Positions 3,705-43,202 of a stretch of DNA of 54,248 nucleotides are shown one piece after another; positions within the stretch are counted from its first letter, which is position 1; every line of letters starts with the position of its first letter. The stretch covers positions 1 through 54,248 of the forward strand of contig JAAYBJ010000327.1 of the NCBI GenBank assembly GCA_012730105.1, given 5' to 3'. A model generated the notes under the pieces. That model worked only from the letters and a program-made list of their open reading frames with translations, was not told the origin of the DNA and made no database searches. A program made the translations under genes and the position numbers. The stretch comes from Candidatus Hydrogenedentota bacterium. GTDB lineage: Bacteria > Hydrogenedentota > Hydrogenedentia > Hydrogenedentales > CAITNO01.

Positions 3705-3769
3705 CGTCTGTTGGGCAGGCCTGTACATCCGGGATTAAGGATATCAGGCCCGGGCATAGAGGCAACTGA

Positions 3770-9572: not shown

Positions 9573-9748
9573 GATGAAGGATGGATAGCAATTTAACATA
9601 GGGAATGAAGAAAGGATGTCACGCATGGTTGCTTTTGTTATCTGCACTTTTAGACGGGCGGATGTTTGTAACGGCAATGGATGAATGACATTAGGACAAG
9701 ACGCACTTCGACGCGCCTTTTATGCGATGAACTGATAGAGGTAGCGAC

Positions 9749-13768: not shown

Positions 13769-13778
13769 GTAACAGTCT

Positions 13779-16181: not shown

Positions 16182-16195
16182 ATAGGATCAAACCC

Positions 16196-19290: not shown

Positions 19291-19304
19291 TCTACATTAG
19301 TCAC

Positions 19305-19356
19305 CGGGAAAACAGGGACTGACACAAGCCTGGCAAAACGGGTCTGTCCCCGCTTT
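19305..19356. repeat. Dispersed palindromic repeat, intergenic copy
   Basis: The element has imperfect inverted ends: AAAACAGGGACTGAC on the left and GGTCTGTCCCCGCTTTC on the right. The right end reads GAAAGCGGGGACAGACC on the other strand. A second copy with the same ends lies at 52407-52465, inside a coding sequence on the host side of the att site. It resembles the short mobile palindromes scattered in many bacterial genomes. Confidence 0.65.
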
Positions 19357-19388
19357 CGCGGCTTTTGCAGCACTTGGAGTAGTAGAAA

Positions 19389-20534: not shown

Positions 20535-20535
20535 T

Positions 20536-21264: not shown

Positions 21265-21342
21265 AACGATTAATTTACCCAAATTTCTCTAGGATATTCT
21301 ATATTATAAAAAATGAACTCCATTATATGAAAGGCGAACCAC

Positions 21343-22335: not shown

Positions 22336-22383
22336 GGCACTCTTTGCCTCTTTAAAGCTGAGCTTGAGTAAAGGGGAACTTCA

Positions 22384-23379: not shown

Positions 23380-23550
23380 ATAATAGAACGCTCGTTCTCT
23401 TTCCGTTACCAGGGTGCGCTTGGTAACTCAATTGCCATAGAAGTTGAACTTCCCGCGTGTGGTTGATTGCAATCATTCCGGAATCTGGAAAGACGGTTTC
23501 CTATACTATACTCTATCTGAAACCCGTTGATACGGAGAAAGGCACACGAC

Positions 23551-24732: not shown

Positions 24733-24813
24733 TGTGGGTGGAATGGTCTCAGGGATGTCCCTGCTCTGGCTTACTTGTTATTTAAATCGTTAAGAGATAC
24801 GGGAGAATCGGCC

Positions 24814-25593: not shown

Positions 25594-25739
25594 GGTTTTG
25601 GATCAGAACGGCAGCAAAAAAAAGCACAGTGGTCTGATTGATGTAGGATTGGTGAACAAAAACTGTATTTGTGCAGGTGCTGTTTGTATTGGAGAGTTTC
25701 GGCCCTTGTTCATTTAGAAACCTGCAAAGAGGATTCATA

Positions 25740-26951: not shown

Positions 26952-28753
26952 TAACGCCCGAAGACCGAAGTCTCTATATAAACGCGGTCACACCGCCGCC
27001 GGGTTATGTGTTTGACCAGGCGCTTGCTACCACGTATACCCTCGACCCGGATACTCTGCTGTCATTACCCACCCATATCGCGTTGGGACAGGGTGCCGCC
27101 GGCGGGGATGTTGATCCTATCATCATCCTTGAATCACTGCGTCGTCTGGCTGGACGCTTCAGTGTTTACGCGGACTACGCAGGTCTGAAAGTGCCCGCCA
27201 GCAAAAATGTATTGTTCGGACTGCTGGAGGACATGATTATTCCTGTGAAAGCGAGGAAGGGAGGCGTCTTTCACCCCAAACTCTGGATATTACGCTTTGT
27301 CCGTCCTGAAAAAGATACCGAAGAACCGGCAATGATGCGCTTGCTGGTGTTATCCCGCAACATCACTTATGACCGTTCCTGGGATCTGTGCCTGCAGCTT
27401 GAAGGGCAGACATGCGGCCGAAATGTTGCCACCAATCACCCGTTAAGTAATTTTATTCGCGCGCTGCCTACTTTTGCCGTACGGCGCACGTCTCCTGAGA
27501 AACGCCGCCAGGCACGATTTATGGCCGAAGAAGTCCGGAAAACCCGGTGGGAATTCCCAGAAGGCTTCGAAGAATTAGCCTTCCACTGTATCGGCACGGA
27601 CGACCGGACCTGGCGGCCCGTGATGTCGAAACGTATGGCGGTGGTTTCCCCCTTTATTTCAGACGGGGCTCTTCAGTTCCTGAGTAAATACACGAATTCG
27701 CTTGTTGCCGTGATTTCGCGGCCCGAAGAATTGAATACCCTTGAACGGGAAACTTTTGACTGCTGCACTAATTGGTACGTATTAGAGGATGCCGCAGAAA
27801 CCGAGGACGGGGAGGAAACAGAGCGGCGGGATACGGTCGGACTGCATGCCAAGATGTATATTTGTGAGGAAAACGGCAGAACACACCTCTACATGGGTTC
27901 CGCGAATGCCACTGCCGCGGCGCTTTGCAACGGTAATAATGTCGAGGTGCTGGTCGAACTGATCGGTCCCAAACACCGTGTGGGCGGTATTAATACATTT
28001 TTGGCCAAGGACGGCCTCGGCCCGTTGCTGTCACCTTATGAACCGCCAGAACAGGGGCCTGCCCAGGAAACAAAGGAACAAAAAGCCCGCAAAGTGCTGG
28101 ATACGGCCAAACGCTTGCTGGCCGGATCCGGATTGCGGCTTCGTTGCAAGAAGAAAGGCGAAGCCTGGGAGTTAGCGCTGGCTGCTAAGGGGCCCCTGAA
28201 TCTTCCGGGAATCATAAAAATCAAGGCGTGGCCCGTTACCGTGTCGGAAAATCTCGCGGCGGATGCGGAGAAACTGCGCCTCGCTGGTTCCGCCGGGCTG
28301 GGTACCTATGCGGTGGAGTCGATTACCGGGCTTATCGCCTTTGAACTTACCGAGGGGACCTTAAGGCTGAAAATACAACTCGCACTGAATCTTCCCGTTG
28401 AAGGCCTTCCCAAATATCGGGAAGAGGCCATTTTCAAAATGATAATAAAAAACCGGGACGATTTCATGCGTTATATTCTGCTGCTTCTCGAAGAAACGGT
28501 GGAAGACGTATTTGATACCCGGCGACTTGGGGGCGCGGCCGATAAAACCGCGTGGCAGGTGGGTCATAACAAGGCTGTGCCAGTATTGGAAGAACTGGTA
28601 CGGGCTTTCAGCCGACACCCTGATAAACTGTCAAGATTAAGAGAGATCATACAGAAACTTTCCGGTGAAAAGGCCGGCAATCGAATTGTTCCCGGCGAAT
28701 TCCTTGAACTGTGGAAGGTATTTGACCGGGCGTATACGGGGAAAAACAAATGA
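26948..28753 (+). CDS. Phospholipase-D-like (HKD) protein
   Basis: A 601-residue protein. ATG 26948 overlaps the previous stop and is preceded by GGGAGGGGG; longer in-frame starts lie inside the upstream gene and are rejected. Two HKD-type half-sites are visible: HPKLWILRF with SRNITYDRSWD beginning near residue 108, and HAKMYICEE with GSANATAAAL from about 299. PLD-like proteins in defence systems are usually nucleases rather than lipases. The second half-site is close to canonical (H-x-K...N-x-G-S-A-N). The first ends in SRNIT...D, also acceptable, so it may be catalytically complete. The C-terminal ~200 residues are unassigned. The stop overlaps the helicase start by four bases. Confidence 0.8.
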   Translation: MITPEDRSLYINAVTPPPGYVFDQALATTYTLDPDTLLSLPTHIALGQGAAGGDVDPIIILESLRRLAGRFSVYADYAGLKVPASKNVLFGLLEDMIIPVKARKGGVFHPKLWILRFVRPEKDTEEPAMMRLLVLSRNITYDRSWDLCLQLEGQTCGRNVATNHPLSNFIRALPTFAVRRTSPEKRRQARFMAEEVRKTRWEFPEGFEELAFHCIGTDDRTWRPVMSKRMAVVSPFISDGALQFLSKYTNSLVAVISRPEELNTLERETFDCCTNWYVLEDAAETEDGEETERRDTVGLHAKMYICEENGRTHLYMGSANATAAALCNGNNVEVLVELIGPKHRVGGINTFLAKDGLGPLLSPYEPPEQGPAQETKEQKARKVLDTAKRLLAGSGLRLRCKKKGEAWELALAAKGPLNLPGIIKIKAWPVTVSENLAADAEKLRLAGSAGLGTYAVESITGLIAFELTEGTLRLKIQLALNLPVEGLPKYREEAIFKMIIKNRDDFMRYILLLLEETVEDVFDTRRLGGAADKTAWQVGHNKAVPVLEELVRAFSRHPDKLSRLREIIQKLSGEKAGNRIVPGEFLELWKVFDRAYTGKNK

Positions 28754-31700
28754 GCAGGAGGAAGAAAGAAACGGAAAAGGTTCTTGCGAGCCTCAAAGAT
28801 TTCCAGCGCAGAACAGTCGATTATGTGTTCCGTAGATTTTACACGGACCAAAATACTACCGACCGTTTCCTTGTGGCGGACGAAGTGGGGCTGGGCAAAA
28901 CAATGGTGGCGAAAGGGATTATTGCCAGGGCAATCGAACACCTCAAAACCAGGGTAAAACGCGTAGACATCGTCTATGTATGCTCCAACATTAGTATCGC
29001 CTCTCAGAACATCAGCAGGTTAACCGTTTCCGGTGTTCAGGAATTTATATACCCAACGCGCCTTACGTTGCTGCCCGCGCATCTGGCGGATATCAGAAAT
29101 AATAAGATTAATTATGTGAGTCTTACGCCAGGAACTAGTTTTGACCCAGTATCCCGTGACGGACACGTGGAAGAACGCGCCTTGATCTATCACATTCTTC
29201 AACGAAATTCAGGATTGTCGCGGGCTGGGTTGCGCCATCTACTCCAGTGCAAGGTGGGCGACGACAATTGGCGAAACCAGTTGAATAAAAGGCGGTCGGA
29301 GGGTACGGATGTAGCTATTTCAAAGGTGTTCTTAAGAAATATCAAGGCGGACAGGAAATTTTTTCAGCGGCTGGAAACATTTTGTCGACGGTCAACGCGT
29401 CGTATTTTATGGGACGATCCTGACAGGCTGGGTCTTGTCTTTGAATTGCGGATGCGGCTAGCTGAAGTGAGCGTTGCCGCCCTGGAGCCGGACCTGGTCA
29501 TTCTGGATGAATTCCAGCGTTTCAGGAACCTGTTGGATGAAAACAATCCGGATGCGCGTATTGCCAAGAAACTTTTCAGCTATCCTGACGCGAAGGTCCT
29601 GCTGCTCTCGGCGACACCTTATAAAATGCTTTCCCTGGACGATGAACAGGAAGAGGACCACTATTGTGACTTCCTGAAAACCTTGACCTTTCTTTTTGGA
29701 TCAGAGGCGGCTGTTGAAGCGATAAGGAAGGAACTTCAGGAATTCCGAAACGCATTGTATTCTCTGGGAGAAGCGGAAGAAGGCTATGCCGCCCATTTGC
29801 GCGATTCCTTGCAACGGAAACTGCTGCAAGTCATGTGCCGAACGGAAAGGGCGCACATGGCCCGCGCGCAGGACGCGATGATGAAAGAGTATGTTGCCAG
29901 GCCTGAAATGCTGGAAAATGACCTGCATGCGGCCGCCTTCGCAGACAGTATTGCGACTCGCGTCGGGGCAAGGGATGTGGTTGAATATTGGAAGTCCAGC
30001 CCATACCTGCTCAATTTCCTGAAAAAATATGAGTTGCGTCGGATACTGGAAAAGCAGCGCGGAAAAGTCGGCCCAGAAGTGATGGGGATCCTTTCGAAAA
30101 ATAACCGGCATATGCTTCGAAAACAGGACATCATGGCCTACCGTGAGGTCGATCCGGCCAACCCCCGTATGCGGCATCTTTTTAAAAACACACTGGATCA
30201 AGGGCTTTGGAAAATCTTGTGGATGCCTCCGTCAATGCCCTATACCTGTCCGGGTGGCGCCTACGCCGAGATTCGCGATGTTACGAAATCACTTGTGTTT
30301 TCCGCATGGTCGGCCGTTCCGGATGCCATTGCGACCCTGTGTTCGTATGCAGCGGAGCGCCGGATGCTTGACGTGTACCGTAAAAAAGTGCGCAGGGTCC
30401 GGCATGAGGTGCTTTACGACAAGATACACCCCTTGTTGCGTTTTGCCCGCGGGAGAGACGACCGGGTTACCGGCATGCCGGTACTGCTGCTGATGTATCC
30501 GAGCCCGGCGCTGGCTTCCCTTATCGATCCGCTGAAAATCGCCCTGAATCTGGGCCCCGGCGGTCCTGTGTCTATGGAAACAATGCTTCAAAAAGCCGAG
30601 GCAATCATCACTCCGTACGTGAATGAGTTTACCCGTGGCGTGCCCAAACGAGGTATCGAAGACCAGCGTTGGTATTGGGCGCTTCCTGCCTTGTTGGATG
30701 GTAGAAAATTTAAAGAAGCCTATTCCTGGGTGGAGGACGGAGAAGAAGGATGGCCTTCTTTGTCCATGGACGGCCAGGAAGACCGCGGCTATCATTTCAG
30801 GGAACACCTTGAAATCTTGAGTCGGGCCATGGAGCATGCTTTCGATACGCCCTTGGGGCGGCCGCCAAAAGACCTCGCGCGAATTGTCGCACTGGTTGCC
30901 GTCGCAGCGCCGGGCACGTGCATGTTGCGCGCATTGAAACGGGTAGCGCCTAATCCGGCGTGGGATGCACCGGCATTGCTTACGGGGGCCGCAACGGTCT
31001 CCGAAGGCTTCCGAACCCTGTTTAATCTGCCGGAAACCATCGCGCTGCTACAGGGGAAAGATCAGCGAACGCCCTTCTGGCAGTTGTGTTTACGCCATTG
31101 CCTGGAGGGTAACATGCAGTCCCTCCTTGACGAGCAGGTGCATTGTCTTGTGGAATCACTGGGGCTACAGGATGAGTCGGAAACGGCGCGATGTTCCAAG
31201 ATCGGCGCGGACCTTGGAAAATCCCTGTCTATTCGAACAGCCCCAATTTATATAGACCAAGTGCGTCTGCGTCCGAACGCGCAAAAGATTCTGTTTGAAG
31301 AATATGCTTCACGGTGCCGTTTCGCGTTGCGCTTCGGGGACATGAGGGAGCAGGAAGAGGCCGCTGTCAAGCGCAAGGATGTTGTACTAAAAGCCTTTAA
31401 TTCCCCCTTCAGGCCGTTTATACTCGCATCTACTTCGATTGGTCAGGAAGGCCTAGACTTCCACACCTGGTGTCATGCCGTTACCCACTGGAACCTGCCC
31501 GCTAATCCTGTGGACCTGGAGCAGCGGGAGGGACGCATACACCGCTACAAGGGGCATGCTATAAGGAAAAACATTGCAAAAGAGTACGGGCTGAAGGCAT
31601 TGTGCAAGCGCAGGAATGATGTTGGCGATCCGTGGCACTACATGTTTGAACTTGCCCGGAAAGAATACGCTAATGCCAGCAACGAGCTGGTCCCCTACTG

Positions 31701-31938
31701 GCTGTTTGAGGTGAAGGGCGGCGCAAAAATCGAACGTCATGTGCCCATGCTGCCATTCAGCAGGGAGGAAGGGCACTTCGAACGCCTGAAAAAGATGCTT
31801 GCCATCTATCGACTTATATTCGGTCAACCCCGCCAGGAGGACCTGCTGCAGTACCTTATCGATAAGACAGAAGAAAAATCGTGTCTACAAAACCTGGATA
31901 ACTGGCGTATTATCCTGGAACCACCCCGTGATAAATGA
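28750..31938 (+). CDS. SF2 (SNF2-like) helicase of a PLD/helicase cassette
   Basis: A 1,062-residue superfamily 2 helicase/translocase. Motif I is DEVGLGKTMVAKG near residue 46, motif II is VILDEFQRF near 250 (DEFQ instead of DEAH), motif III is LLLSATPYKML near 285. Motifs V-VI are STSIGQEGLDFHTW and LEQREGRIHRYKG near 900-925. A large insertion (about 330-800) separates the two RecA-like lobes. The ATG overlaps the PLD gene stop, so the three genes are translationally coupled. The likely role is DNA translocation feeding the PLD-type nuclease. From memory, the three-gene order resembles the Azaca defence system, but I cannot confirm that name here. Confidence 0.85.
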   Translation: MSRRKKETEKVLASLKDFQRRTVDYVFRRFYTDQNTTDRFLVADEVGLGKTMVAKGIIARAIEHLKTRVKRVDIVYVCSNISIASQNISRLTVSGVQEFIYPTRLTLLPAHLADIRNNKINYVSLTPGTSFDPVSRDGHVEERALIYHILQRNSGLSRAGLRHLLQCKVGDDNWRNQLNKRRSEGTDVAISKVFLRNIKADRKFFQRLETFCRRSTRRILWDDPDRLGLVFELRMRLAEVSVAALEPDLVILDEFQRFRNLLDENNPDARIAKKLFSYPDAKVLLLSATPYKMLSLDDEQEEDHYCDFLKTLTFLFGSEAAVEAIRKELQEFRNALYSLGEAEEGYAAHLRDSLQRKLLQVMCRTERAHMARAQDAMMKEYVARPEMLENDLHAAAFADSIATRVGARDVVEYWKSSPYLLNFLKKYELRRILEKQRGKVGPEVMGILSKNNRHMLRKQDIMAYREVDPANPRMRHLFKNTLDQGLWKILWMPPSMPYTCPGGAYAEIRDVTKSLVFSAWSAVPDAIATLCSYAAERRMLDVYRKKVRRVRHEVLYDKIHPLLRFARGRDDRVTGMPVLLLMYPSPALASLIDPLKIALNLGPGGPVSMETMLQKAEAIITPYVNEFTRGVPKRGIEDQRWYWALPALLDGRKFKEAYSWVEDGEEGWPSLSMDGQEDRGYHFREHLEILSRAMEHAFDTPLGRPPKDLARIVALVAVAAPGTCMLRALKRVAPNPAWDAPALLTGAATVSEGFRTLFNLPETIALLQGKDQRTPFWQLCLRHCLEGNMQSLLDEQVHCLVESLGLQDESETARCSKIGADLGKSLSIRTAPIYIDQVRLRPNAQKILFEEYASRCRFALRFGDMREQEEAAVKRKDVVLKAFNSPFRPFILASTSIGQEGLDFHTWCHAVTHWNLPANPVDLEQREGRIHRYKGHAIRKNIAKEYGLKALCKRRNDVGDPWHYMFELARKEYANASNELVPYWLFEVKGGAKIERHVPMLPFSREEGHFERLKKMLAIYRLIFGQPRQEDLLQYLIDKTEEKSCLQNLDNWRIILEPPRDK

Positions 31939-32027
31939 AGCGTTTGATTTTTATTTGCAGGGAGAGTAGTGTAAAAATAGGTGAATCGAATACGCACAAA
32001 TATTTGGTTAAATTATAGGGTGTGGTT

Positions 32028-32519
32028 ATGGTGAAAAAATATCACTGTCCAAATTGTGGTCGAAAATTCATTGAAGAAGGCGCAAGGAAACTGAATTTCA
32101 AATGTCCAACAGAAGGTTGTAATCATGCAACACTGATATTACCGGGTATTGGACATCAGGATACCGGAGTGCAGCATGACTTGACCGGTGCTAATGCAAC
32201 AGAAACGCCTGAGATAAAGGCCTTGCGTACTAAATGGGAACAAGAACTTCGAATTAAAGGAGGTATTAATACGCAAGGCATGGAGGAAAAGGCGGATTAT
32301 CTAATCACAATTGCCCAAAACTATGGGGGAAGAATTCCGCTTGTCATGCTTTGCGATCAGCAAAAAAGAATGGAGTTGAGTTTGCGTTTGTTTGACAATG
32401 CACATGAATATAATTTCATCCGGTATGTTGTGAGCAAAGGACAGGACCTGGGTGTGCTTGAATACGAAGGGGATTGTCTTGTCTTAAAGTACCCAGAGAA
32501 ACTTGATCGGTGGAAGTAA
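32028..32519 (+). CDS. Small zinc-ribbon protein
   Basis: A 163-residue protein with an N-terminal zinc ribbon: CPNC at residues 7-10 and CPTEGC at 26-31 give four cysteines. The start is ATG 32028, with AGGG seven bases upstream; GTG codons just before and after are alternatives. The remaining ~120 residues are acidic and helical with no recognised motif. It stands between the helicase cassette and the RecQ-UvrD fusion, with gaps of 89 and 280 bases, so it probably forms its own unit. Role unknown; a nucleic-acid-binding adaptor is possible. Confidence 0.6.
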   Translation: MVKKYHCPNCGRKFIEEGARKLNFKCPTEGCNHATLILPGIGHQDTGVQHDLTGANATETPEIKALRTKWEQELRIKGGINTQGMEEKADYLITIAQNYGGRIPLVMLCDQQKRMELSLRLFDNAHEYNFIRYVVSKGQDLGVLEYEGDCLVLKYPEKLDRWK

Positions 32520-32799
32520 ACGCCCTTTCGAGTAAACGGGCACCTGCAATTGTTCGGAGGATATTCTCTCATTCCTCATGTTCCATAAAAGGATTTCTGT
32601 GTTGCATTGATGTTTCAATCTAATTGTCATAAAAAATAGGGAATAGCATGACCCGAAGATTTTAAACCCTGCTGGAAACCGGAGATGAAGGCCCGGTTAA
32701 CAAAGCGCTGAACTTTCTCGGGAGAAGAAAGACTCATACGAATGGGGAGTATAAAGGAATACGTGTTTCCCCGAACAAGATGGTTTTGGAATTTAATTA

Positions 32800-35700
32800 G
32801 TGGACAAACTGATTCAGTCGTGTCATATCGAGAAATGCATAGCGATCGATCTTGAAGTCAATCGTGAATCAGGCCAAATCTATCGCATGGCTGCCCTGCG
32901 GAGAAATTGTATCGACAAACCTTTTTTATTATCGGGCGGTCATTTTCCTGATGCGTTGAAGGAATTGGATGCATTTGCTGTGGGGATGGAGTTTCTGGTG
33001 GGGCATAATGTTATCGCCTTTGATATTCCCCATCTTCAGGCCGCTGCGCCTGAACTCCGGCTCCTGGACTTGCCCGTTATTGATACGCTTCGCTTAAGCC
33101 CGCTTGCATTTCCCCGAAACCCCTATCACAAACTGGTCAAGCATTATAAGGATGGCGGACTTCTGCGATTTAATGCGAATGATCCTGAACTGGATGCACG
33201 CATTTGTCTTGATTTATTCCAAGATGAGGAAAAGGCGTTCTATCGTTTAAGGGAGGAAAATCCCGATCTGCTCACCGCCTTCCACTGGCTGACGGCGTCC
33301 TGTTCTGAAGAAAAGGGCTTTGACCATTTCTTCCGCATGGTCCGAGAGGCGGCGATACCAACGGATGAAGAGGGATGCGCCGCGGTTGCCGCGTGTTTGG
33401 CCCCTTCCGCCTGTGTGAATCACGGCAAGGCGGTGCTCGAGCAACCATCCCTTAGTGGATGGCCCATGGCATATGCGCTGGCATGGTTGTCAGTTGCCGG
33501 CGGCAACTCGGTGATGCCTCCCTGGGTGCGTCATGAGTTCCCTGATGCGCCAAGACTCATTAAACTGCTTCGGGACACGCGTTGTAAGGATCCGTTGTGT
33601 GACTGGTGTCAGGAGCATCATAACTCCAAGCGGGTGCTTAAGCATTGGTTCGGATTTTCAGACTTTCGTTCGGCGCCTCTTTGTGAAGATGGCATGCCTA
33701 TGCAGGAAGCCATTGTAAACTCCGCAATGAACCGCAGCCACGTTCTGGGGATTCTGCCCACGGGTACGGGCAAGTCCGTGTGTTACCAGGTGCCCGCCCT
33801 TTCCCGTTATGAAAATACCGGGGCCCTCACGCTAGTTGTTTCTCCGCTTGTAGCGCTGATGGAGGACCAGGTGCGCGGCTTGCGGGAACGGGGAATCACC
33901 TCATGTCTTGCTCTCAATGGACTATTGTCAATGCCCGAACGCGCCGATGTGCTGGAACGGATTCGTTTGGGTGATTGCGCGATATTGTTGGTGTCCCCAG
34001 AGCAGTTGCGTAACCGCGGGTTCCGCCGGTCTGTTGAACAGCGGGAGATTGGCGCATGGATACTCGATGAGGCGCACTGTCTTTCAAAATGGGGGCAGGA
34101 TTTTCGAACGGATTACCGCTATGTCGGACGGTTTATAAGGGAGTCCGCCGGCAAAGAGCCCCTGCCACCCGTGCTGTGTCTCACAGCGACAGCGAAACCT
34201 GACGTGATACGGGACATAACGGACTATTTCCAACGTACCATGGGTGCAAATCTTCTGGTCTTCAATGGGGGCGCCAATCGGGATAACCTGGATTTTTCGG
34301 TTGTTGAGACGACTCCTGAGCACAAGTTTTCTGATATCCACCAACTTCTCGAAAGTCAACTGTCCCAAGATGGCAGTGGCGGCGCAATCGTTTACTGTGC
34401 CACACGAAAACAAACGGAAAAAGTGGCTGCCTTTCTTGTCAGTATGGGGTGGCCTGCCGCCCATTTTCATGCTGGCCTCACACCGGAAGTAAAAAAGACC
34501 ACCCAGAAGCAATTCATAGAGGGGGAAATTCGTGTCATTGCCGCCACAAACGCTTTTGGTATGGGCATAGACAAACCGGATGTGCGTCTGGTGATTCACG
34601 CGGAAATACCGGGTTCACTGGAAAACTATCTGCAGGAAGCGGGGCGTGCGGGACGGGACCAATTGCCTGCAAGATGTGTGTTGCTTTATTGTGAAAAAGA
34701 TATTGAGCAACAGTTTGGCTTGTCTGCAAAATCACAACTGCCGTTGCATGAAATTCAGGCTGTATTGCGGGCGCTTCGCAGGATGGCAGGTAGGCACAGG
34801 CCTCCTGATAAACCGGTGGAAGTAAATGCCACTCCCGGCGAAATCCTGTCCAATGACGATGAAAATGAAGTCGAACGCGATAAGAATACTGAAGATACGC
34901 GCGTGCGCACCGCTGTGGCCTGGTTGGAAGAACCGCATCTGGTGTCCCGGGAAGAGAACGTGTACCAGGTTTTCCCTTCCAGTTTGCGCGTTCCTTCCCT
35001 TGAGGAAGCTGATGTTCGTCTTGAAAAGTTTCCAATGCCCTATCGTGGCCAACTTCGGTCCATTTTAAAACTGCTTATCAGTGCCGATCCCCGGGAAGGC
35101 GTGACGACAGATGAACTTATGGGTGCCTCACGCCTGTCTTCATCCGGGGTGGCCCGTGCGATGAATGACCTGGAAAGATGCGGTATTCTTTCCAATGATT
35201 CCATTTTTACCGCGCTGGTTCATAGCGGTGTAGAAAATGCATCCCGAAAAAGAATGGAAGCCACTACCGCGCTGGAGTCGGCATTCATAGGGCTTCTTCA
35301 AGAAACCGAACCGGACCTTCAAAAAGGCGAGTCATCGGTATTGTTCCTGCGGCGTGTCGCCCAGCGTCTCAAGGATGACGGTTATGAGCAGGCCCTCCCC
35401 GAACGGCTTTATCGTCTGCTGCAAAGCATAGAATCCGATGGAAAGTCGGAAGACCTGGGTATTGGTAGTGTTCGATTGCGCAAAATAGACCCGGAAACTG
35501 TTCAGGTGTTATTGCAGCGGGACTGGGAGTCTCTGAAGAAAACGGCGGAACTGAGAAGAACCGGCGCGCGTTTGCTTGTGGCCCACCTGCTTGCCTGTCT
35601 TTCTCCGGATGTACGCGGCAACGATCTTCTTGTAACAACAACGCTCGGAAACTTATATGCCGCCCTGGAAGCGGATCTCGATATCAAGGCCCAAGCAAAA

Positions 35701-37914
35701 GATATCCCGCGTCTTGTAGAAAGGGCATTGCTATGGTTGCATGAACAAGAGATTGTTCGGCTGGGTAAAGGCATGATTGTTTTTCGTCCTGCCATGCGAA
35801 TCCTGGTAAAACCCGGTAACCGTTCTTTCGCGCGGGATGATTACGCTGAACTAAAGGATCATTATGACGAACAGGTCGTCCAAATTCATGTGATGGCCGA
35901 GTATGCCCGCCAAGGACTTGCAGACTCCAGAAATGCCCGGCAACTAGCCAATGACTATTTCGGTCTCAGCAGGGAGGACTTTATTTCGCGCTGGTTTCCG
36001 AAGGACACAAAAGCGCTGAAACGAAAAACCGGTGATGCGTCATGGAAGGCTATTGTCGGAGGGCTTAACCGGGAACAACATGCAATTGTTTCAGATGAAC
36101 GAGAAAAGACAAATGTACTGGTTTTGGCGGGACCCGGTTCTGGCAAGACGCGGGTTCTTGTGCATCGTATCGCTTATCTGATTCGGGTAAATCGTGAGAA
36201 TCCACGAGGCATACTTGCGTTGGCTTATAACCGTCATGCCGCGGTGGAGATCAGGCGCAGACTACGGGAACTGATTTATGACGACGCAAACGGGGTAACG
36301 GTGCTGACTTGCCATGCGCTGGCTATGCGGCTTATTGGAGCCAGTTTTGTCGAGACCATGGTGCAGGAACCCGATTTTAAACGTGTGCTTATTGATGCCG
36401 TGCGGTTGCTCAGGGGCGAAGGCATGCCTCCGGAGGACGCTGATGAGCAGCGGGAGCGCTTACTCTCGGGATTCAGGTGGATTCTCGTGGATGAATATCA
36501 GGACATTGGTCCGGAACAGTATGAACTGATTGCTGCACTGGCAGGTCGTACACTGAACGACCCCGAAAGAAAACTGTCCCTGTTCGCTGTTGGTGATGAC
36601 GATCAGAACGTTTATGCCTTTGCAGGCGCCTCGGTAAGATATATACGTCAATTCCAGAAGGATTATCAGGCCAGGCTTTTTTACCTTACCCAAAACTATC
36701 GGTCGACGATAAATATCATTCGCACCGCGAACGCCCTTATTGATGGCGCCAGAAACAGAATGAAGTCCGGCCACCCGATTGTGATAGACGGATCGCGCCA
36801 AAAGGAGCCTGCAGGCGGTTTGTGGGAAGACTTGGACCCCATGGGCCGGGGGCGCGTGCAGATCCTGAACGTGGACGGTGCAGAAACCGCCCAGGCGGAA
36901 CAGGTCATGTCAGAAATGCTTAGGCTCTCGAAACTGGATCCCCTGTGGGAATGGAGTAATGCTGCCGTCATTGCCCGGCAGTGGAAGCTATTAGATCCGG
37001 TTTATGCCTATTGCCAGGCCAACAATATCCCAGCGCAATTGGCCGATCGTGATCCTCTGCAGTTTTGGAGATTACGTGAAACACAACTGCTTGTGGAATG
37101 GCTGTCCGAACGTGGTTCTAATCCTTTGAAACCCACGGAACTTGATACCTTTCTGAAACGACAGTCCGACGGGCCATGGTGGGAACTCTTGCGAGAAGCC
37201 ATTGATAGTTATCGTCTTGAATGTGGTGACGGACCGCTTCCTGCCATTCATTTAAAGGAATGGCTCGCGGAGTGGGGGCGCGAGATACGAAAACGCCAGC
37301 AGGGCCTGCTCCTGGTTACAGCACACCGGGTCAAAGGTTTGGAATTTGACCATGTCGCAGTGCTTGACGGAAATTGGCAAGATCGAGGGGATGACGAAGA
37401 CCCAGATGCGGCATGCCGGTTATATTATGTCGCCATGACCCGTGCAAGAAAGACGTTGACACTCGCACGCAGGGCACTGTCAAACGGACCTGCTTACAGC
37501 TTATTGACACTGCCTTCTGTATGCATGCGAAATGCACCTTCACCCGGTATGCCTTCCCATATACTGGAACGAGAATACATGACATTGACTCCAGCCAATG
37601 TTGATATTGGATTTGCGGGTAGGTTTCACCCACGCAATCGCGTTCACGCTATACTGAAACGCCTGCAACCCGGTGATGCCCTCCAATTAACACGGGCGAA
37701 GGAGCAGTGGCTTTTTGAGTATAACGGACAGGTCGTTGGCAGGCTTGCCCGGAGTTTTAACCCGCCCCAAAATATGTACTGTATTCAAGCCCGTGTTCAT
37801 GCAATGCTCGTCAGGTTTCGTATGGACAGCGATCCTTTGTATGCGGATTCAATCGAATGCGACCGCTGGGAAGTGGTTATTCCAGAACTCGTATTTGCGC
37901 CCCCCATCGGTTAA
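32800..37914 (+). CDS. Exonuclease-RecQ-UvrD fusion helicase
   Basis: A 1,704-residue protein with three enzyme modules. Residues ~10-150: an RNase-H-like 3'-5' exonuclease (AIDLEVN, VGHNVIAFDIPH, and an Asp in NDPELDAR). Residues ~300-640: a RecQ helicase (Walker A PTGTGKSVCYQVP near 319, DEAHCLSKWGQDFR near 422, SATAKP-type LTATAKPDV, and AFGMGIDKPDVR with QEAGRAGRD). A winged-helix region follows, with no obvious RecQ zinc cysteines. Residues ~1090-1600: a UvrD/Rep helicase (AGPGSGKTRVL near 1109, VDEYQDIGPEQYEL near 1230, GDDDQNVYAFAGAS, TAHRVKGLEFDHV, YVAMTRARKTL). The GTG start at 32800 has no strong ribosome-binding site, so the exact N-terminus is uncertain. Probably a self-contained DNA-processing defence or repair enzyme. 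Confidence 0.88.
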   Translation: MDKLIQSCHIEKCIAIDLEVNRESGQIYRMAALRRNCIDKPFLLSGGHFPDALKELDAFAVGMEFLVGHNVIAFDIPHLQAAAPELRLLDLPVIDTLRLSPLAFPRNPYHKLVKHYKDGGLLRFNANDPELDARICLDLFQDEEKAFYRLREENPDLLTAFHWLTASCSEEKGFDHFFRMVREAAIPTDEEGCAAVAACLAPSACVNHGKAVLEQPSLSGWPMAYALAWLSVAGGNSVMPPWVRHEFPDAPRLIKLLRDTRCKDPLCDWCQEHHNSKRVLKHWFGFSDFRSAPLCEDGMPMQEAIVNSAMNRSHVLGILPTGTGKSVCYQVPALSRYENTGALTLVVSPLVALMEDQVRGLRERGITSCLALNGLLSMPERADVLERIRLGDCAILLVSPEQLRNRGFRRSVEQREIGAWILDEAHCLSKWGQDFRTDYRYVGRFIRESAGKEPLPPVLCLTATAKPDVIRDITDYFQRTMGANLLVFNGGANRDNLDFSVVETTPEHKFSDIHQLLESQLSQDGSGGAIVYCATRKQTEKVAAFLVSMGWPAAHFHAGLTPEVKKTTQKQFIEGEIRVIAATNAFGMGIDKPDVRLVIHAEIPGSLENYLQEAGRAGRDQLPARCVLLYCEKDIEQQFGLSAKSQLPLHEIQAVLRALRRMAGRHRPPDKPVEVNATPGEILSNDDENEVERDKNTEDTRVRTAVAWLEEPHLVSREENVYQVFPSSLRVPSLEEADVRLEKFPMPYRGQLRSILKLLISADPREGVTTDELMGASRLSSSGVARAMNDLERCGILSNDSIFTALVHSGVENASRKRMEATTALESAFIGLLQETEPDLQKGESSVLFLRRVAQRLKDDGYEQALPERLYRLLQSIESDGKSEDLGIGSVRLRKIDPETVQVLLQRDWESLKKTAELRRTGARLLVAHLLACLSPDVRGNDLLVTTTLGNLYAALEADLDIKAQAKDIPRLVERALLWLHEQEIVRLGKGMIVFRPAMRILVKPGNRSFARDDYAELKDHYDEQVVQIHVMAEYARQGLADSRNARQLANDYFGLSREDFISRWFPKDTKALKRKTGDASWKAIVGGLNREQHAIVSDEREKTNVLVLAGPGSGKTRVLVHRIAYLIRVNRENPRGILALAYNRHAAVEIRRRLRELIYDDANGVTVLTCHALAMRLIGASFVETMVQEPDFKRVLIDAVRLLRGEGMPPEDADEQRERLLSGFRWILVDEYQDIGPEQYELIAALAGRTLNDPERKLSLFAVGDDDQNVYAFAGASVRYIRQFQKDYQARLFYLTQNYRSTINIIRTANALIDGARNRMKSGHPIVIDGSRQKEPAGGLWEDLDPMGRGRVQILNVDGAETAQAEQVMSEMLRLSKLDPLWEWSNAAVIARQWKLLDPVYAYCQANNIPAQLADRDPLQFWRLRETQLLVEWLSERGSNPLKPTELDTFLKRQSDGPWWELLREAIDSYRLECGDGPLPAIHLKEWLAEWGREIRKRQQGLLLVTAHRVKGLEFDHVAVLDGNWQDRGDDEDPDAACRLYYVAMTRARKTLTLARRALSNGPAYSLLTLPSVCMRNAPSPGMPSHILEREYMTLTPANVDIGFAGRFHPRNRVHAILKRLQPGDALQLTRAKEQWLFEYNGQVVGRLARSFNPPQNMYCIQARVHAMLVRFRMDSDPLYADSIECDRWEVVIPELVFAPPIG

Positions 37915-38038
37915 TCGGTAACCGCGATGCGCGTGTTATTGCTCCTCAAACGATACGGACCGTACACCGATCAGTATGTTGAACAATAAGTGGCCCGTGG
38001 TTGTTTATGCTTTTATGATGCGCTCTGATAGGACCTTA

Positions 38039-39010
38039 TTACTGCCTGGATTTGTGCTGCCGCACATTGAGCGCTTTCCATTCCAGAAGGGGCTGGGATT
38101 GTATGCGTTGTTGAAGGGAGATGTCATCCGTCAAGAGTGTCGCGTCAATTACACCCCGGTCCAACAGCAGGTCAAGAAACATCCGCTCAGAATCCGTAAA
38201 AGGCAGCAAGGCGGCAAGCCTTTCACGACACTCTCTGACAAGGCCTTCCCCGTATTCGGCTGGTTTTTCCAGGATTGCCGGCGAATTGACACGTAGCATG
38301 GGGACCAACTGTCGGGTGAAGTCCATAATATCGAAATTCACCTCATCAGCGGATACCGTTCTCCAGTCCTTTCTGCTCATTGCCCCATAGACCACAAATC
38401 CCATGCGAAGGCGGTTGTAATCAAGGTCGGCCATGTGGAGAATCTGGTGACTGTCAAAGAGGTCACGGACCTGTTTGCGGGCAAGTAATGCGGTTAGTTT
38501 ACCCGCGGCAAGTTCATGGAGGTCAAGTACAGGAATCCCTGTGGCTTTACAGAAACCAACGGGATAAGAGTTTTTGACGGTTACTGGCCATAAGGGAATA
38601 CGGAACATAAAATTAATATCGACTTCGAGGTTTCCTGTGTGACCTGAATCCCGTTCATACCGCAGCATCCATTTGCCGCCGGCATGTTCTTGGGGTATTC
38701 GTCTTGGGGTGAACCCTTCCCTGGCAAAAACAGCCTGAATAGCCTGCTCGACTTCGGGACGCTCGGCGAGCATATCATCGCGGCTTATGGCCCCGACATA
38801 GTTCAAGTCAATGTCAACGGAAAGGCGAGGGGTATTAAATACAAATAGGTTTAGGGCGGTGCCACCCTTGAGCACCATTTTCCCTTTTAGAAACGGGTGG
38901 CTTTGAATGGCTTCCAATAGTCCCAGCAGATGGGCGACTTTTTCGAGTATATCCTCTCTGAAACCCGTCGCTGCTGCTTCCGTTGCCAGTTTTTCTCGAG
39001 ATATCCTCAT
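38039..39010 (-). CDS. abiEii: AbiEii-type nucleotidyltransferase toxin
   Basis: A 323-residue protein of the AbiEii/nucleotidyltransferase family. The signature GGTALNLFVFNTPRLSVDID gives the Gly-rich loop near residue 49 and the catalytic Asp pair at 66 and 68. A further acidic or basic site lies around ELAAGKLTALLARKQVRDLFD (Lys and Asp motifs III-IV). Its start overlaps the antitoxin stop by four bases, the usual AbiE arrangement. In family members the toxin adds nucleotides to target RNA and halts growth during phage infection. All core motifs look intact. The C-terminus converges with the RecQ-UvrD gene, leaving 124 bases between them. Confidence 0.88.
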   Translation of the reverse strand: MRISREKLATEAAATGFREDILEKVAHLLGLLEAIQSHPFLKGKMVLKGGTALNLFVFNTPRLSVDIDLNYVGAISRDDMLAERPEVEQAIQAVFAREGFTPRRIPQEHAGGKWMLRYERDSGHTGNLEVDINFMFRIPLWPVTVKNSYPVGFCKATGIPVLDLHELAAGKLTALLARKQVRDLFDSHQILHMADLDYNRLRMGFVVYGAMSRKDWRTVSADEVNFDIMDFTRQLVPMLRVNSPAILEKPAEYGEGLVRECRERLAALLPFTDSERMFLDLLLDRGVIDATLLTDDISLQQRIQSQPLLEWKALNVRQHKSRQ

Positions 39011-39813
39011 AATACCTCTGCCCAGCTTCGTTCAAAGACCTCTTCCGGAACCACAAGGTTCCATCCCGATACGAGTCGGCCTGATTTGCGTTTAGAGCGA
39101 TCCAGGTAATGAGGCTGTCGCGGCCGCATGTCCCGGAGCATGCTGAGATGAAGATCATCGACCATCAGGGTCTCGCGGTGCTGTTCAAGGAAATAGCCGA
39201 CCTTTGCGGCCGTGGTCGCATTGTTGAGCAGACGGACGTATTCCACTACCTTGTCAAGGTCAAAGAATTCTATCGACTCAAGGGAACGCCAGATCTCCTC
39301 CCAGCTTCCCGTCAAGTCCGGGCGGTCCAGCACATCCACTAAGGTCCGTTCCAGGGAGGTAACCCGCAGCTCTTGACCGGAACGTTCTGCAGTAGAAACG
39401 CCGAAACGCTCTTCTCCAAGTTGCAGTAACATTTCATGAAACTTTGCGCCGCGGAAAACATGATCCCGGAATGAAAAAGTGCTGACAGGACGTGATGCGG
39501 AATAGATGAAGTGAATATGAACGGAATATGCCCTCCCGTGGAACTCCAACGCGGTATGGTGTGACAAAACCGCGTCAGGCGTTAATTTCGCCGCAACGAG
39601 GAAAGGGTCGATTGGATAAGAATCGGGATTCGCCCCTGAAGGAATGACAGCGTACAATCCTCGCCGGATCAGTACGACACGACCTGTCTTCCGGTAATAG
39701 GACAAAAGTGCCTCTTGAGTTCTATTGCCGACTTTTCCCGTGGCCAATAGATAGTCGGCCAATTCTTTTCCAGTAAAAACCGGATGTCGCAAAAAGAACA
39801 CATCGTGCTTCAT
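39007..39813 (-). CDS. abiEi: AbiEi-type antitoxin/transcriptional repressor
   Basis: A 268-residue antitoxin. The longer frame to 39930 is rejected because ATG 39813 has AAGGA eight bases upstream and lies downstream of a clear promoter. The N-terminal winged helix fits AbiEi (FLRHPVFTGKELADYL, LLSYYRKTGRVVLIRRGLYAVIP). The middle shows ALEFHGRAY and the RTLVDVL block typical of the family. AbiEi both neutralises AbiEii and represses the operon by binding inverted repeats at the promoter; such a palindrome overlaps the -10 box here (39844-39862). Confidence 0.88.
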   Translation of the reverse strand: MKHDVFFLRHPVFTGKELADYLLATGKVGNRTQEALLSYYRKTGRVVLIRRGLYAVIPSGANPDSYPIDPFLVAAKLTPDAVLSHHTALEFHGRAYSVHIHFIYSASRPVSTFSFRDHVFRGAKFHEMLLQLGEERFGVSTAERSGQELRVTSLERTLVDVLDRPDLTGSWEEIWRSLESIEFFDLDKVVEYVRLLNNATTAAKVGYFLEQHRETLMVDDLHLSMLRDMRPRQPHYLDRSKRKSGRLVSGWNLVVPEEVFERSWAEVL

Positions 39814-39843
39814 AATTGGTATCCTTGACGCCGGTGCGCAATA

Positions 39844-39862
39844 CCCATAATAATAATATGGG
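39844..39862. promoter_or_regulatory. Palindromic operator over the abiE -10 box
   Basis: Perfect inverted repeat CCCATA (39844-39849) and TATGGG (39857-39862) with seven AT bases between, covering the -10 hexamer. Position and symmetry fit the negative autoregulation known for AbiEi; binding itself is inferred. Confidence 0.6.
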
Positions 39863-39881
39863 AAACGCGCATAGTTGTCAA
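39853..39881 (-). promoter_or_regulatory. Sigma-70 promoter of the abiE operon
   Basis: On the minus strand, TTGACA (39881-39876) and TATTAT (39858-39853) are separated by exactly 17 bases. This predicts a transcription start near 39846 and a leader of about 33 bases before ATG 39813. Confidence 0.8.
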
Positions 39882-40033
39882 GTATAATTTGTATGTACTT
39901 CTTGACTTGACACGGTTCTTTGTAACCCATCTTCTGGAATGGATAGGGTACATTAATGTCAACATCTGAACAATAGGGAATGCCCCTGGTCTGTTTACAT
40001 CTTTTGTATCTGCTTTATACCTGAGACGGTAAG

Positions 40034-40085
40034 GAGGTTTTGTGGGTTTTGACGGTGAATTCCTTAAGCAAAAAAATGTATGAAA
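40034..40085 (+). repeat. Dispersed repeat type 1, copy A
   Basis: Contains GGGTTTTGACGGTGAATTCC followed by TTAAGCAAAAAAATGTATGA. Related copies at about 40732 and 42679 share GGGTTTTG-x-GGGTG, then a (T)TAAGCAA-like and A-rich segment ending ATGA. Function unknown. Confidence 0.5.
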
Positions 40086-40118
40086 CCCACCCGGGTGGCA
40101 ACAAAAAAAATACTATAC

Positions 40119-40182
40119 TTTTTGTGCGTGCCTGATGTATCCCGTGTGGTGAGGCGTTTCCCCCCCTTGCCCCCCCCCGGTG
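40119..40182. repeat. Dispersed repeat type 2 (C-tract), copy A
   Basis: About 64 bases: TTTTTGTGCGTGCCTGATGT, a GTGTGGTGAGG segment, then TTTC8-like and C9-like runs around TTG. The partner at 42563-42626 is nearly identical along its whole length, including both C tracts. It lies just right of repeat type 1 copy A. Confidence 0.6.
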
Positions 40183-40235
40183 GCGTGGACAGGAAAGGAG
40201 AGCGTCGCATTCCATTTACGCTTTGGACATCTAGG

Positions 40236-40430
40236 TTAAACAATGTCCTTATCCAGAAGCCATTCGATAGCGGGAACCCAGCGGATTGGTTTTGGTAAGG
40301 CTTCGGTAGGGGCCATTGCGTCAAGGGTTATTAGCAAGGCCTCGCGCGGGCTGCCGGCGGCTATTCTTGCTCCGAGGTTTTGCCCGGGAAAGGTTGTTTT
40401 TCCGGTTCGGTGAATCCCTATAACGACCAT
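40236..40430 (-). pseudogene. Remnant of an AAA_14-type P-loop ATPase
   Basis: A 64-codon minus-strand fragment reads MVVIGIHRTGKTTF, then RIAAGSPREALLITLD. This closely resembles the Walker A region of AAA_14/DUF4143-type ATPases (the usual form is IGIRRAGKTTFLWQ and PREALLYFNFEDER). The conserved Glu-Asp-Glu-Arg that should follow is missing, the frame ends after 64 codons, and no upstream part is in frame. It is probably a decayed copy from a mobile or toxin-like gene. Confidence 0.4.
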
Positions 40431-40531
40431 GGTCTTTCCAGGAATTTAAGGAAAATGGATATCCCGCTTTATAAAAGCCGGCAGGGGCATAGCAAGGGAG
40501 TCTGCAATTTTCTGTCGAATAACCGGCCTGA

Positions 40532-40587
40532 ATTGTCTTTCTAAAAGAGACATAATCTGTCTTTTTTATCTTTTTAAGAAAGACAAT
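40532..40587. repeat. Nested inverted repeats
   Basis: Outer arms ATTGTCTTTCT (40532-40542) and AGAAAGACAAT (40577-40587) are perfect over 11 bases. Inside, GACATAATCTGTC forms a second hairpin followed by a T run. This could be a weak terminator, a paired operator or the end of a small element. It lies upstream (on the minus strand) of the ATPase remnant. Confidence 0.4.
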
Positions 40588-40731
40588 ATAACAAATACGG
40601 CCACATAGCAAGTAGTTAATTTGTCGTTGCTACCAACAGTACAATTGAACATTTGATATTCAATCTTACGAACGGTACAAAGAGGAATGGTTAAGCGACA
40701 CATGGAAAAAGTCCTTGTGGCGGGTGAGTTT

Positions 40732-40775
40732 CGCGGGTTTTGCGGGTGCGGTCCTTAAGCAAGAAAATACATGAG
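40732..40775 (+). repeat. Dispersed repeat type 1, copy B
   Basis: Reads GCGGGTTTTGCGGGTGCGGT, then CCTTAAGCAAGAAAATACATGA. It matches copy A (40034) in the TTAAGCAA segment and copy C (42678) in the GCGGGTTTTGCGGGTGC segment. It lies just before the GT-C gene. Confidence 0.5.
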
Positions 40776-40883
40776 TTTTTAACTGGCGGGAAGAAGCAAA
40801 ATATTTTTTATACTTTCTGAAATGCTAGAATGTTGCAGGCATCGTTCTAGTATACACATGCTATTGGGAATGGGAAGAGTGTC

Positions 40884-42500
40884 ATGGATAAGCAAAGGCG
40901 CTTCAAACAGATTAAAGTGGCAGTTTCCCTGGCCTTATTGGTTTGTATCGCTGCGCTGGATTCCTGGATATGCTTCAAACGGATACAGGAAACAATGCCT
41001 TATCCCCGGCATATGGACGAGGTCTTCATTACTCAACGGGCTCTTGCCATTCTGAAAAGTAATGATTGGAATCCACACGAATTCAACTATTCTTCTTATC
41101 CAGTGTATCTCACGACAGGTATGCTTGCATTGGGATATCTTCATCATGCCGGGGCAGGCAATAAAGTAGATATTAACGCTATTAAATCCGTTTCGTACCC
41201 TTATTATGATCCTCCTCAAATTCTTCTGCCCGCCCGTATTCTTTTCGCGTTATTAATGGTTATGGCTTTCGTTTGTATGGGCTTGGCAGCATGGCGTTTT
41301 TTCGACATTCCGGAGGCAATGTTCTTGACGCCAATAACACTCACCCTCTCAATATTTCTGTTGCAGCATGGGTGGCGATATATTAATGTGGATACCCTGG
41401 CGGTAAGTATGGCCGCACTTACATTAACTATTGTGGCGTTCCATGCAGGTTCCTCCAGTTTTGGTTTGACTGCCATCCTGCCCGGAATGCTATGCGGTTT
41501 GACTGTGGCGGGAAAGTATACTTATGTGGGCATTATGCTGCCCGCGGTACTGGCAATATGGATATACGGCGGACGGTGGCGTTTCTATCGCACGCTGGCG
41601 CTTCTCGCATCGGCCATTCTGATGTTCGTTATCGTTGTGCCGTATTCCATCTTGGATGTGCGCACGTTTGTTGAGGAATTGGGCAGATTGGCATATTCCT
41701 ATACACAAGGCCGAACGGGCAGGACGTACGCGCCGGGCTGGGACCACGCGCGACACTATATATTTTTCACGCTTAAGGATTATGGTTATTATTCAGTGTT
41801 TCCTGCAGTCGCGGGGCTTGTGTATATGAGTTTTAAAAACTGGCGCGGGGCATTTATTCTATCCTCTTTCCCAATACTGCTTCTTGTGCACCTGAGTTTG
41901 AGCCGGCTTTATTATGAACGGAATGCGGCATTTTGCTTTCTTTATTATGGATTGCTTGTTGCTGTCGGCCTTTTTGCGGCATACAAATTACTTTTTATAA
42001 TTTTGGGGAAAATAGGATATCTTGGCACAAGGAAGGTGTTACGGGCTGTGGGCGCCTCATGCGCGATAATTGGAGTGGCGTATCTTGTGTTACCGCTGCA
42101 GCGGCCTGGCCAGATGGTTTCCGCACTCCCGGACACACGAAATCTTGCCACGGAATGGATTAAAAGCAACCTCCCATCCGGTGCCACCATATTGATGCCT
42201 GCGGAACTGTCTTTCTATGCGACCCCATTGGCACGAAAGTATAAGACGCTTGTACGGGACTATGCGCTTTTCAAGCCGGAAACCTTTGTAAATGATGCGT
42301 TGGCACTGGGGGCGGACTACGTCATGATGCCTGTTTGGGCGTCTGAAAATGGGAAAACGAAAACTTTGTCGGATATCAAAAATGCCGTAAATAACAAGAT
42401 ACGGCCCCTGGTCTCCTATAAAGGAAATCCGGTGGGCGCGAACTCAACCTATCCAGTATTTTATGGAGACCCCGCGTTTTCGATAGGCGCGTTGAAATGA
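40884..42500 (+). CDS. GT-C-fold membrane glycosyltransferase (PMT/ArnT-like)
   Basis: A 538-residue integral membrane protein with about ten hydrophobic segments. After the first membrane helix the periplasmic loop has PYPRHMDEVFITQRALAIL; an acidic pair at this place is the GT-C catalytic signature (DE near residue 48). The C-terminal ~130 residues are soluble and periplasmic-like. The family uses lipid-linked sugars to glycosylate lipids or proteins at the outer face of the inner membrane. GGAAGAG precedes the ATG by four to five bases. The gene is isolated, bracketed by dispersed repeats on both sides, and is the last complete gene before the att site. It could alter a surface glycan used as a phage receptor, which is inference. 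Confidence 0.75.
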   Translation: MDKQRRFKQIKVAVSLALLVCIAALDSWICFKRIQETMPYPRHMDEVFITQRALAILKSNDWNPHEFNYSSYPVYLTTGMLALGYLHHAGAGNKVDINAIKSVSYPYYDPPQILLPARILFALLMVMAFVCMGLAAWRFFDIPEAMFLTPITLTLSIFLLQHGWRYINVDTLAVSMAALTLTIVAFHAGSSSFGLTAILPGMLCGLTVAGKYTYVGIMLPAVLAIWIYGGRWRFYRTLALLASAILMFVIVVPYSILDVRTFVEELGRLAYSYTQGRTGRTYAPGWDHARHYIFFTLKDYGYYSVFPAVAGLVYMSFKNWRGAFILSSFPILLLVHLSLSRLYYERNAAFCFLYYGLLVAVGLFAAYKLLFIILGKIGYLGTRKVLRAVGASCAIIGVAYLVLPLQRPGQMVSALPDTRNLATEWIKSNLPSGATILMPAELSFYATPLARKYKTLVRDYALFKPETFVNDALALGADYVMMPVWASENGKTKTLSDIKNAVNNKIRPLVSYKGNPVGANSTYPVFYGDPAFSIGALK

Positions 42501-42562
42501 TGAGCAATCTATTCCTGTCGTCCGGAAAACATAATCTTCATGTCATAAAAATTTTTACCACA

Positions 42563-42626
42563 CTTTTTGTGTGTGCCTGACGTATGCTGTGTGGCGAGGT
42601 GTTTCCCCCCCTTGCCCCCCCCGGTT
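42563..42626. repeat. Dispersed repeat type 2 (C-tract), copy B
   Basis: Near-identical to 40119-40182: TTTTTGTGTGTGCCTGACGT, a GTGTGGCGAGG segment, then two C runs around TTG. Differences are scattered single bases, mostly transitions. The two copies face the same way on either side of the GT-C gene, so they are direct repeats. Confidence 0.6.
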
Positions 42627-42677
42627 GTTGAAGAATGGAATGGAGCCAAGGTTGGGTTTGGGCGTCCAGAAGAATAT

Positions 42678-42720
42678 TGCGGGTTTTGCGGGTGCATTTC
42701 TAAAGCAAAAGAAACGCATG
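42678..42720 (+). repeat. Dispersed repeat type 1, copy C
   Basis: Reads TGCGGGTTTTGCGGGTGCAT, then a TTCTAAAGCAAAAGAAACGC segment followed by ATGA. It follows the type 2 repeat, as copy A precedes one at 40034-40182. Confidence 0.5.
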
Positions 42721-42747
42721 AAAGAGGTGGGGACCGGCGGCAGCCCT

Positions 42748-42945
42748 CTAGGCCTTTGTATGATTGCCTTCATAACTGATGGCAGCTGCCAACAGCGTGA
42801 CCAGTTCCTCTTTGGGCATGTTTTTCAATGTCTGCAAAAGGGCCTGCCTTATAGCGTTTTCTGTATTTGAAGTGACACTTTGAGTGACACTCAATTCTTC
42901 TGTATCGTTTTCATCCAATGTTTTCAGGCTTTTTTGAGTTACGGA
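42748..42945 (-). pseudogene. Possible detached integrase C-terminal tail
   Basis: Reading leftwards from the tRNA fragment on the minus strand, an open frame passes through the antisense tRNA (the familiar GPCWNRTSDQ reading) and continues for about 66 codons to a stop at 42748: VTQKSLKTLDENDTEE, then ENAIRQALLQTLKNMPKEEL. Many tyrosine recombinases read through their attP in this way, and integration separates the last codons from the rest of the gene. The tail is amphipathic and gene-like, but with no homology search the assignment is tentative. Confidence 0.4.
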
Positions 42946-42997
42946 CAGGTGACTCATAATCACTTGGTCGCTGGTTCGATTCCAGCAGGGCCCACCA
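42946..42997 (+). other. 3' fragment of tRNA-Met(CAU): integration attachment site
   Basis: The anticodon arm is GGTGA (42948-42952), loop CTCATAA with anticodon CAT, and TCACT (42960-42964). The variable loop is TGGTC. The T arm is GCTGG-TTCGATT-CCAGC (42970-42986). The acceptor 3' strand is AGGGCCC, then discriminator A and CCA to 42997. No matching 5' half (GGGCCCT and a D arm) lies upstream. A fragment with the native terminator on its right is what remains at the distal end of an element integrated into a tRNA gene. Confidence 0.85.
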
Positions 42998-43014
42998 TCC
43001 TTTTGCCCCGTTTT

Positions 43015-43038
43015 AGCCTGATTTTTCAGGCTTTTTTT
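43015..43038 (+). terminator. Rho-independent terminator of the original tRNA-Met gene
   Basis: Stem AGCCTG (43015-43020) and CAGGCT (43027-43032) with a six-base loop, running straight into a seven-T tract. It lies 18 bases after the CCA end. Confidence 0.75.
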
Positions 43039-43202
43039 GTTGTTTCCCGCCTCTTCCGGATGCCGACTACCGGCATCTTCATCTTTGTCATCAAATATAA
43101 AACAGCAGGTAGGCGAAATGTTTATTTTCATCCCTGTGCCACGAGTGTGCGAAGATGGTTGCGGGGCTTGAGTGTACCCTGGGGGTGCGGAAGGCCGCAT
43201 AG

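Follow-up and report, generated by a model that had tools for sequence, protein, structure and literature searches.

A defence island at a tRNA-Met gene of a Hydrogenedentes genome and an integrase family whose genes are probably split at their own attachment sites

Gene content of the window

The stretch of DNA analysed here (the window, 54,248 bp) represents the entire contig C308 of the Hydrogenedentes genome G000. The assignment to Candidatus Hydrogenedentes follows from a named relative, the one match of a single-protein search. Its features, and those of a second contig of the same genome (C283), were as follows, with coordinates referring to the window unless C283 is named.

1..42945: right part of an integrated element, as placed by att polarity and arm repeat; the contig begins at 1
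3770..18169, plus strand: BREX/Ssp-like cluster
13779-16181: 800-aa protein in the PglZ position of the BREX/Ssp-like cluster
19389..21264, plus strand: PDC-M30 A and B, a candidate defence pair
21343-22335: Lit-like metallopeptidase (PADLOC Lit, 2.6e-27), inside the island
25671..31938, plus strand: ZacA-ZacB-ZacC
32800..37914, plus strand: 1704-aa fusion of a RecQ-like (DpdF-type) and a UvrD-like helicase
38039..39930, minus strand: AbiEi-AbiEii abortive-infection pair
42748..42945, minus strand: detached 65-residue integrase C-terminal tail and stop codon, in frame with the antisense core; predicted helical hairpin AIRQALLQTLKNMPKEELVTLLAAAI
42871..42891, minus strand: putative arm-type repeat AGTGTCACTCAAAGTGTCACT, inside the tail
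42946..42997, plus strand: 3' fragment of tRNA-Met(CAU), from the anticodon stem (5' strand) through CCA, lacking the D-arm and the 5' acceptor strand
42946..43061, plus strand: probable attR core, 116 bp, exactly identical to C283:5598-5713 (probable attL)
43015..43040, plus strand: intrinsic terminator of the tRNA (AGCCTGA-TTTT-TCAGGCT-TTTTTT at 43015-43038), inside the duplicated core and identical in C283
43062..54248: chromosomal flank outside the element by att polarity, including PKD-domain and long repeat proteins
43203-44813, minus strand: MshEN(GspE_N)/cNMP protein, outside the element
45016-45828, plus strand: protein kinase, outside the element
C283:1-5597: probable left end of the element, with int and the Prim-Pol/DUF3987 gene
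C283:4130-5719: integrase gene (int), tyrosine recombinase of 529 aa (Pfam Phage_integrase, 4.5e-16)
C283:5524-5544: putative partner arm-type repeat AGTGTCACCTAAAGTGTCACT

The BREX/Ssp-like cluster encoded a DUF4007 protein (SspB/BrxP-like), a type IIG/DrmMI-like methyltransferase, an SspC/BrxC-like ATPase, the 800-aa protein and BrxL. The 800-aa protein had no match in Pfam or PADLOC. From its position and our own reading we take it to be PglZ-like, and it may be either a divergent PglZ or a new component. Just upstream of the cluster (1545-3704) we observed three tandem paralogues of about 200 aa each (MISDADxxVFxYDPKEF...), for which no Pfam or PADLOC match was found where tested. With the BREX/Ssp-like genes and BrxL, PDC-M30A/B, ZacABC, the RecQ-UvrD fusion and AbiE aboard, the term defence island, which had been used in a preliminary description of this DNA, is therefore apt.

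The tRNA-Met fragment and its intact counterpart

The preliminary description had reported the 3' part of a tRNA-Met(CAU) gene with its own terminator, but without a 5' half, at 42946-42997, and we were able to confirm this. Both ARAGORN and Rfam called a tRNA at 42927-42997, the 5' half of which consisted of unrelated sequence, and the call scored 32.4 bits versus 73.9 bits for the intact tRNA-Met gene. The intact gene was located on C283 (5662-5738, minus strand) and contained the C283 copy of the 116-bp core. Only two copies of this core were present genome-wide (5.63 Mb in 343 contigs); a search of the window's own genome recovered the C283 copy with an E-value of 6e-33 and the next best match with 0.04. 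The identity broke off abruptly at both ends, on the left at the anticodon stem, and 64 of the 116 bases did not belong to the tRNA.

Between the intact tRNA and its contig end, C283 encoded the 529-aa tyrosine recombinase, two small genes and an 805-aa Prim-Pol/DUF3987 protein. On the other, chromosomal side of the tRNA we found a trypsin-like gene (weak by Pfam), together with what we take by eye to be an isoleucyl-tRNA synthetase and a radical-SAM gene. The preliminary description had suggested looking for an intact tRNA-Met whose 3' half is identical to the fragment and which has an integrase next to it. Because precisely such a gene lies beside an integrase on C283, this check came out in its favour.

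An integrase gene divided between the two ends

The int frame on C283 was read antisense into the tRNA gene and stopped inside it (...GGPCWNRTSDQVIMSHLL-stop). In the window, the same frame on the minus strand reads GGPCWNRTSDQVIMSHL and then continues SVTQKSLKTLDENDTEELSVTQSVTSNTENAIRQALLQTLKNMPKEELVTLLAAAISYEGNHTKA-stop. When int and the tail were joined across the core, as they would be in a circle, a protein of 593 residues resulted, and this joined query matched C308:42751-43065 at 98%. Since the tRNA 3' fragment on C308 carries the int frame onward, attP is, judging from these reading frames, located inside int, and insertion is expected to swap the C-terminus of the integrase. The position of the att site within the integrase gene was absent from the preliminary description.

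All catalytic residues (R271, K300, H395, R398, H421 and Y431) were invariant in 17 relatives and are located N-terminal to the core. They are followed by a C-terminal linker (residues 432-529) that was predicted to be unstructured, and the tail was predicted to form a two-helix hairpin (pLDDT ~90). Sequence neighbours in the PDB were transposon Int and Xer proteins, matched via the recombinase domain only. The closest tail pairs showed dN/dS ratios of ~0.16-0.36, well below 1, so the tail is under selection at the protein level, although all genomes seen had it separated from the rest of int. None of 30 tail loci had the tail fused to a complete integrase, and the longest tail ORF measured 252 aa. 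Plasmid and phage collections held no relatives of the integrase, and the relatives in IMG/VR ended at or near tRNA-like ends without tails; an unsplit circular int-plus-tail gene was seen in none of these three kinds of collection.

Polarity and extent of the element

Genome-wide, the 21-bp repeat AGTGTCACNNAAAGTGTCACT was found exactly twice: at C283:5524-5544, within int, and at C308:42871-42891. Each copy flanks its core on the side of the element. Polarity and this repeat together make it very probable that the cores on C283 and C308 are attL and attR of one element. Its size would then be at least 48,658 bp (5,597 on C283 and 43,061 on C308). The two contigs are unjoined in the assembly, and a search for an overlap between them found none. 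Both the integrase tail and its arm repeat are found to the left of the core; the element therefore lies left of 42946, which puts the GspE_N/cNMP and kinase genes outside. The preliminary description had likewise placed the defence genes inside an element integrated at this tRNA and the GspE_N/cNMP and kinase genes beyond it. Both placements are supported.

No empty site was found in close relatives (same-genus genomes G001-G008), where the same tRNA-Met had different neighbours on both sides, and the right-flank GspE_N/cNMP gene had no orthologue within the genus. In two of these genomes (G002 and G003), the tRNA-Met was immediately followed by a gene homologous to that of the 1704-aa helicase in the window, and neither integrase nor tail was present (L077:4597-9666, minus strand, and L078:10145-12307, plus strand). 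These RecQ-UvrD fusion homologues shared ~80% DNA identity with that of the window over the compared stretch, and ~45 bp past the core resembled the element side of C283. This layout suggests either a decayed element or a defence hotspot at tRNA-Met.

Distribution of the integrase family

We searched 68 genomes of the same class and found relatives of the integrase in 27 of them. Most ran antisense into a tRNA gene (His, Lys, Arg, Ala, Val, Met, Pro, Asp, Gly or Glu) and ended in or beside it. Eight elements with both ends, at seven tRNA types in six genomes, could be compared: those at tRNA-Met (the window) and tRNA-Phe (contig C168 of the same genome), and others at tRNA-Arg (two), Asp, Lys, Glu and Ala in five other genomes. 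Seven elements were measured whole and spanned 5.4-22.5 kb. In all eight the int stop was located in or beside the tRNA, and a homologous in-frame tail followed past the attR core. These tails comprised 58-82 residues and ended in a common motif of approximately AILEALRGLSKDELLALLADVLA.

Every one of the eight elements also contained a short, element-specific direct repeat, with one copy in the integrase linker before the core and another in the tail, 44-71 bp after it. The repeats outscored the best of 60 shuffles in all eight cases, by narrow margins for the window's element (16 vs 14) and G053C73 (13 vs 11). They look like putative P and P' arm sites embedded in the integrase coding sequence.

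Profiles were built from seven tails with the eighth held out, and each held-out tail was found at its own attR (8/8). It was the best match in seven cases (E-values 1.6e-5 to 8e-19, runner-up 0.05 or worse) and ranked second (E-value 6.4e-10) for G004C40, behind a further tail remnant a few hundred bases away. This second remnant (L133:8079-8186, plus strand), close to the attR of the tRNA-Glu element of G004, may date from a previous insertion. Used by itself, the tail profile detected tails in 19 of the 68 genomes. In 25 of 30 loci examined, a perfect antisense T-arm with CCA immediately preceded the tail; 17 of these belonged to the 22 loci that had not been used for training. The background rate, real tRNAs included, was ~0.02 per kb.

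The tRNA-Phe element (L123:6833-12380, 5.4 kb) represents a second complete element of the family in G000, with a split integrase, a tail and a 36-bp arm-repeat match. At least one split-integrase element, on contig C140 of genome G009 (L122, L194), had ends that shared the 18-bp repeat CGGGAGCGATTTCATCTC and at which no tRNA was recognised; the split-integrase design is thus not tied to tRNA targets.

Alternative explanations

Islands at tRNA genes are ordinary (PMC4383910), and the locus might be nothing more than a usual tRNA-targeting island in which integrase and tRNA overlap by chance and the ORF left of the fragment is meaningless. Integrases that target an adjacent tRNA are indeed common (PMC4383910), and antisense frames through tRNA genes are often open. 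Chance is nevertheless very unlikely to explain why eight of eight attR sites have the same tail and why it always keeps its frame with respect to int. It would also have to account for a search with the tail alone that met antisense tRNA ends in 25 of 30 loci, and for tail dN/dS ratios well below 1. We regard it as unlikely, too, that the two ends stem from two different elements at the same tRNA-Met, in tandem or as remnants, in which case the C283 integrase did not bring the defence genes. Tandem islands at one tRNA are known (PMC4383910), a second tail was located near one attR in G004, the minimum of 48.6 kb exceeds the size of the seven other elements, and C283 and C308 are unjoined. Against this, only two cores exist in the genome, and the arm repeats of C283 and C308 match each other and nothing else, those of the other elements being quite different. 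Even with two elements, the defence genes would be inside some element ending at 42946.

A reversed polarity, in which the element would lie rightward of 43061 and the defence genes would be chromosomal, agrees with the right flank having no orthologue in the same genus. It is exceedingly improbable, as tail and arm repeat are found left of the core here and at all other attR sites, and a 3' tRNA fragment marks the end away from the intact tRNA, the element separating the two. The chance that the fragment is a decayed tRNA duplicate unrelated to integration seems to us close to nil: the identity comprises 116 bases, 64 of them non-tRNA, with a sharp left edge at the anticodon stem, and it is accompanied by an integrase beside the intact copy and by the tail and arm repeats. 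With considerable confidence we read 42946-43061 as the attR of an element inserted at the 3' half of tRNA-Met, with attP inside int and a presumed switch between a long and a short form of the protein.

Comparison with known systems

Anticodon-sublocation islands of the Islander type resemble this element in having an intact tRNA and a 3' fragment, a tyrosine integrase and a repeat starting from the anticodon stem, but standard islands of this type lack an integrase frame across attP (PMC4383910). Phage Mx8 and SSV are named there as the known exceptions that have one. In Mx8 of Myxococcus (AF396866), attP is reported to be inside int, where integration gives the gene a new 3' end (IntP to IntX) and the altered integrase is active with changed specificity rather than dead (PMC6070905). 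The Hydrogenedentes family is similar in that attP is apparently located in the int coding sequence and the C-terminus is exchanged, and the Mx8 ORF likewise continued into an antisense-tRNA-like peptide and then ~100 residues of tail. Homology to Mx8 was not detected: there was no significant BLAST match and no match to the tail profile, and hhalign gave a probability of 2%. The Hydrogenedentes tail further differs in being conserved at more than 25 loci, which involve many different tRNAs, and the islands are non-phage-like, with Prim-Pol/DUF3987 and defence cargo. What is new here, as far as sequence comparison can tell, is an Mx8-like mode of action in an integrase family not detectably close to that of Mx8.

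The SSV-type 'suicidal' integrases of archaea also have attP inside int and parts of int at both element ends (PMC8371274). Their split parts the N-terminal portion from the catalytic domain and is inactivating (PMC8371274), whereas the Hydrogenedentes integrase loses its C-terminal tail only and keeps a whole catalytic domain (residues 271-431 precede the core). In mycobacteriophages with integration-dependent immunity, attP is also located in a gene and a C-terminal tag stays behind at attR, but in those phages it is the repressor gene that is split, and the tag acts as an ssrA-like degradation signal (PMC9934374, citing Broussard 2013). In the present family the integrase itself is split, and the tail is a predicted helical hairpin without a terminal degron-like AA.

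Proposed mechanism and implications

In the circular form int would encode the long protein of 593 residues, and this form would perform integration. Upon insertion the tail is left at the other end of the element and a peptide encoded antisense to the tRNA takes its place. The tail-less protein of the integrated form might be altered, being weaker or acting with another direction or specificity. As the altered Mx8 enzyme is still active, full inactivation of the short integrase should not be assumed. The tail might thus serve as a built-in integration sensor, and its loss could help to keep the defence island integrated until a further factor, or an intact copy, comes into play. We infer such an on/off or directionality switch from the gene structure. 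A more general model for the Hydrogenedentes integrases is offered tentatively: loss of the hairpin would provide directionality control, with the circle encoding a long, integrating enzyme and the integrated form a short one, and tRNA target, P and P' arms in coding sequence and tail might form a single exchangeable module.

A review has described self-disrupting recombinases as exclusive to archaea (PMC8371274); the Hydrogenedentes family together with Mx8 would represent a C-terminal form of self-disruption in bacteria. Self-split integrase genes would thereby be a recurrent and conserved design in one bacterial phylum, beyond a peculiarity of Mx8. Even when an assembly is fragmented, the tail profile locates the distant ends of islands; in the window it delimits which defence genes travel together. 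The finding also raises the testable question of whether cutting off a small C-terminal tail suffices to give an integrase its direction.
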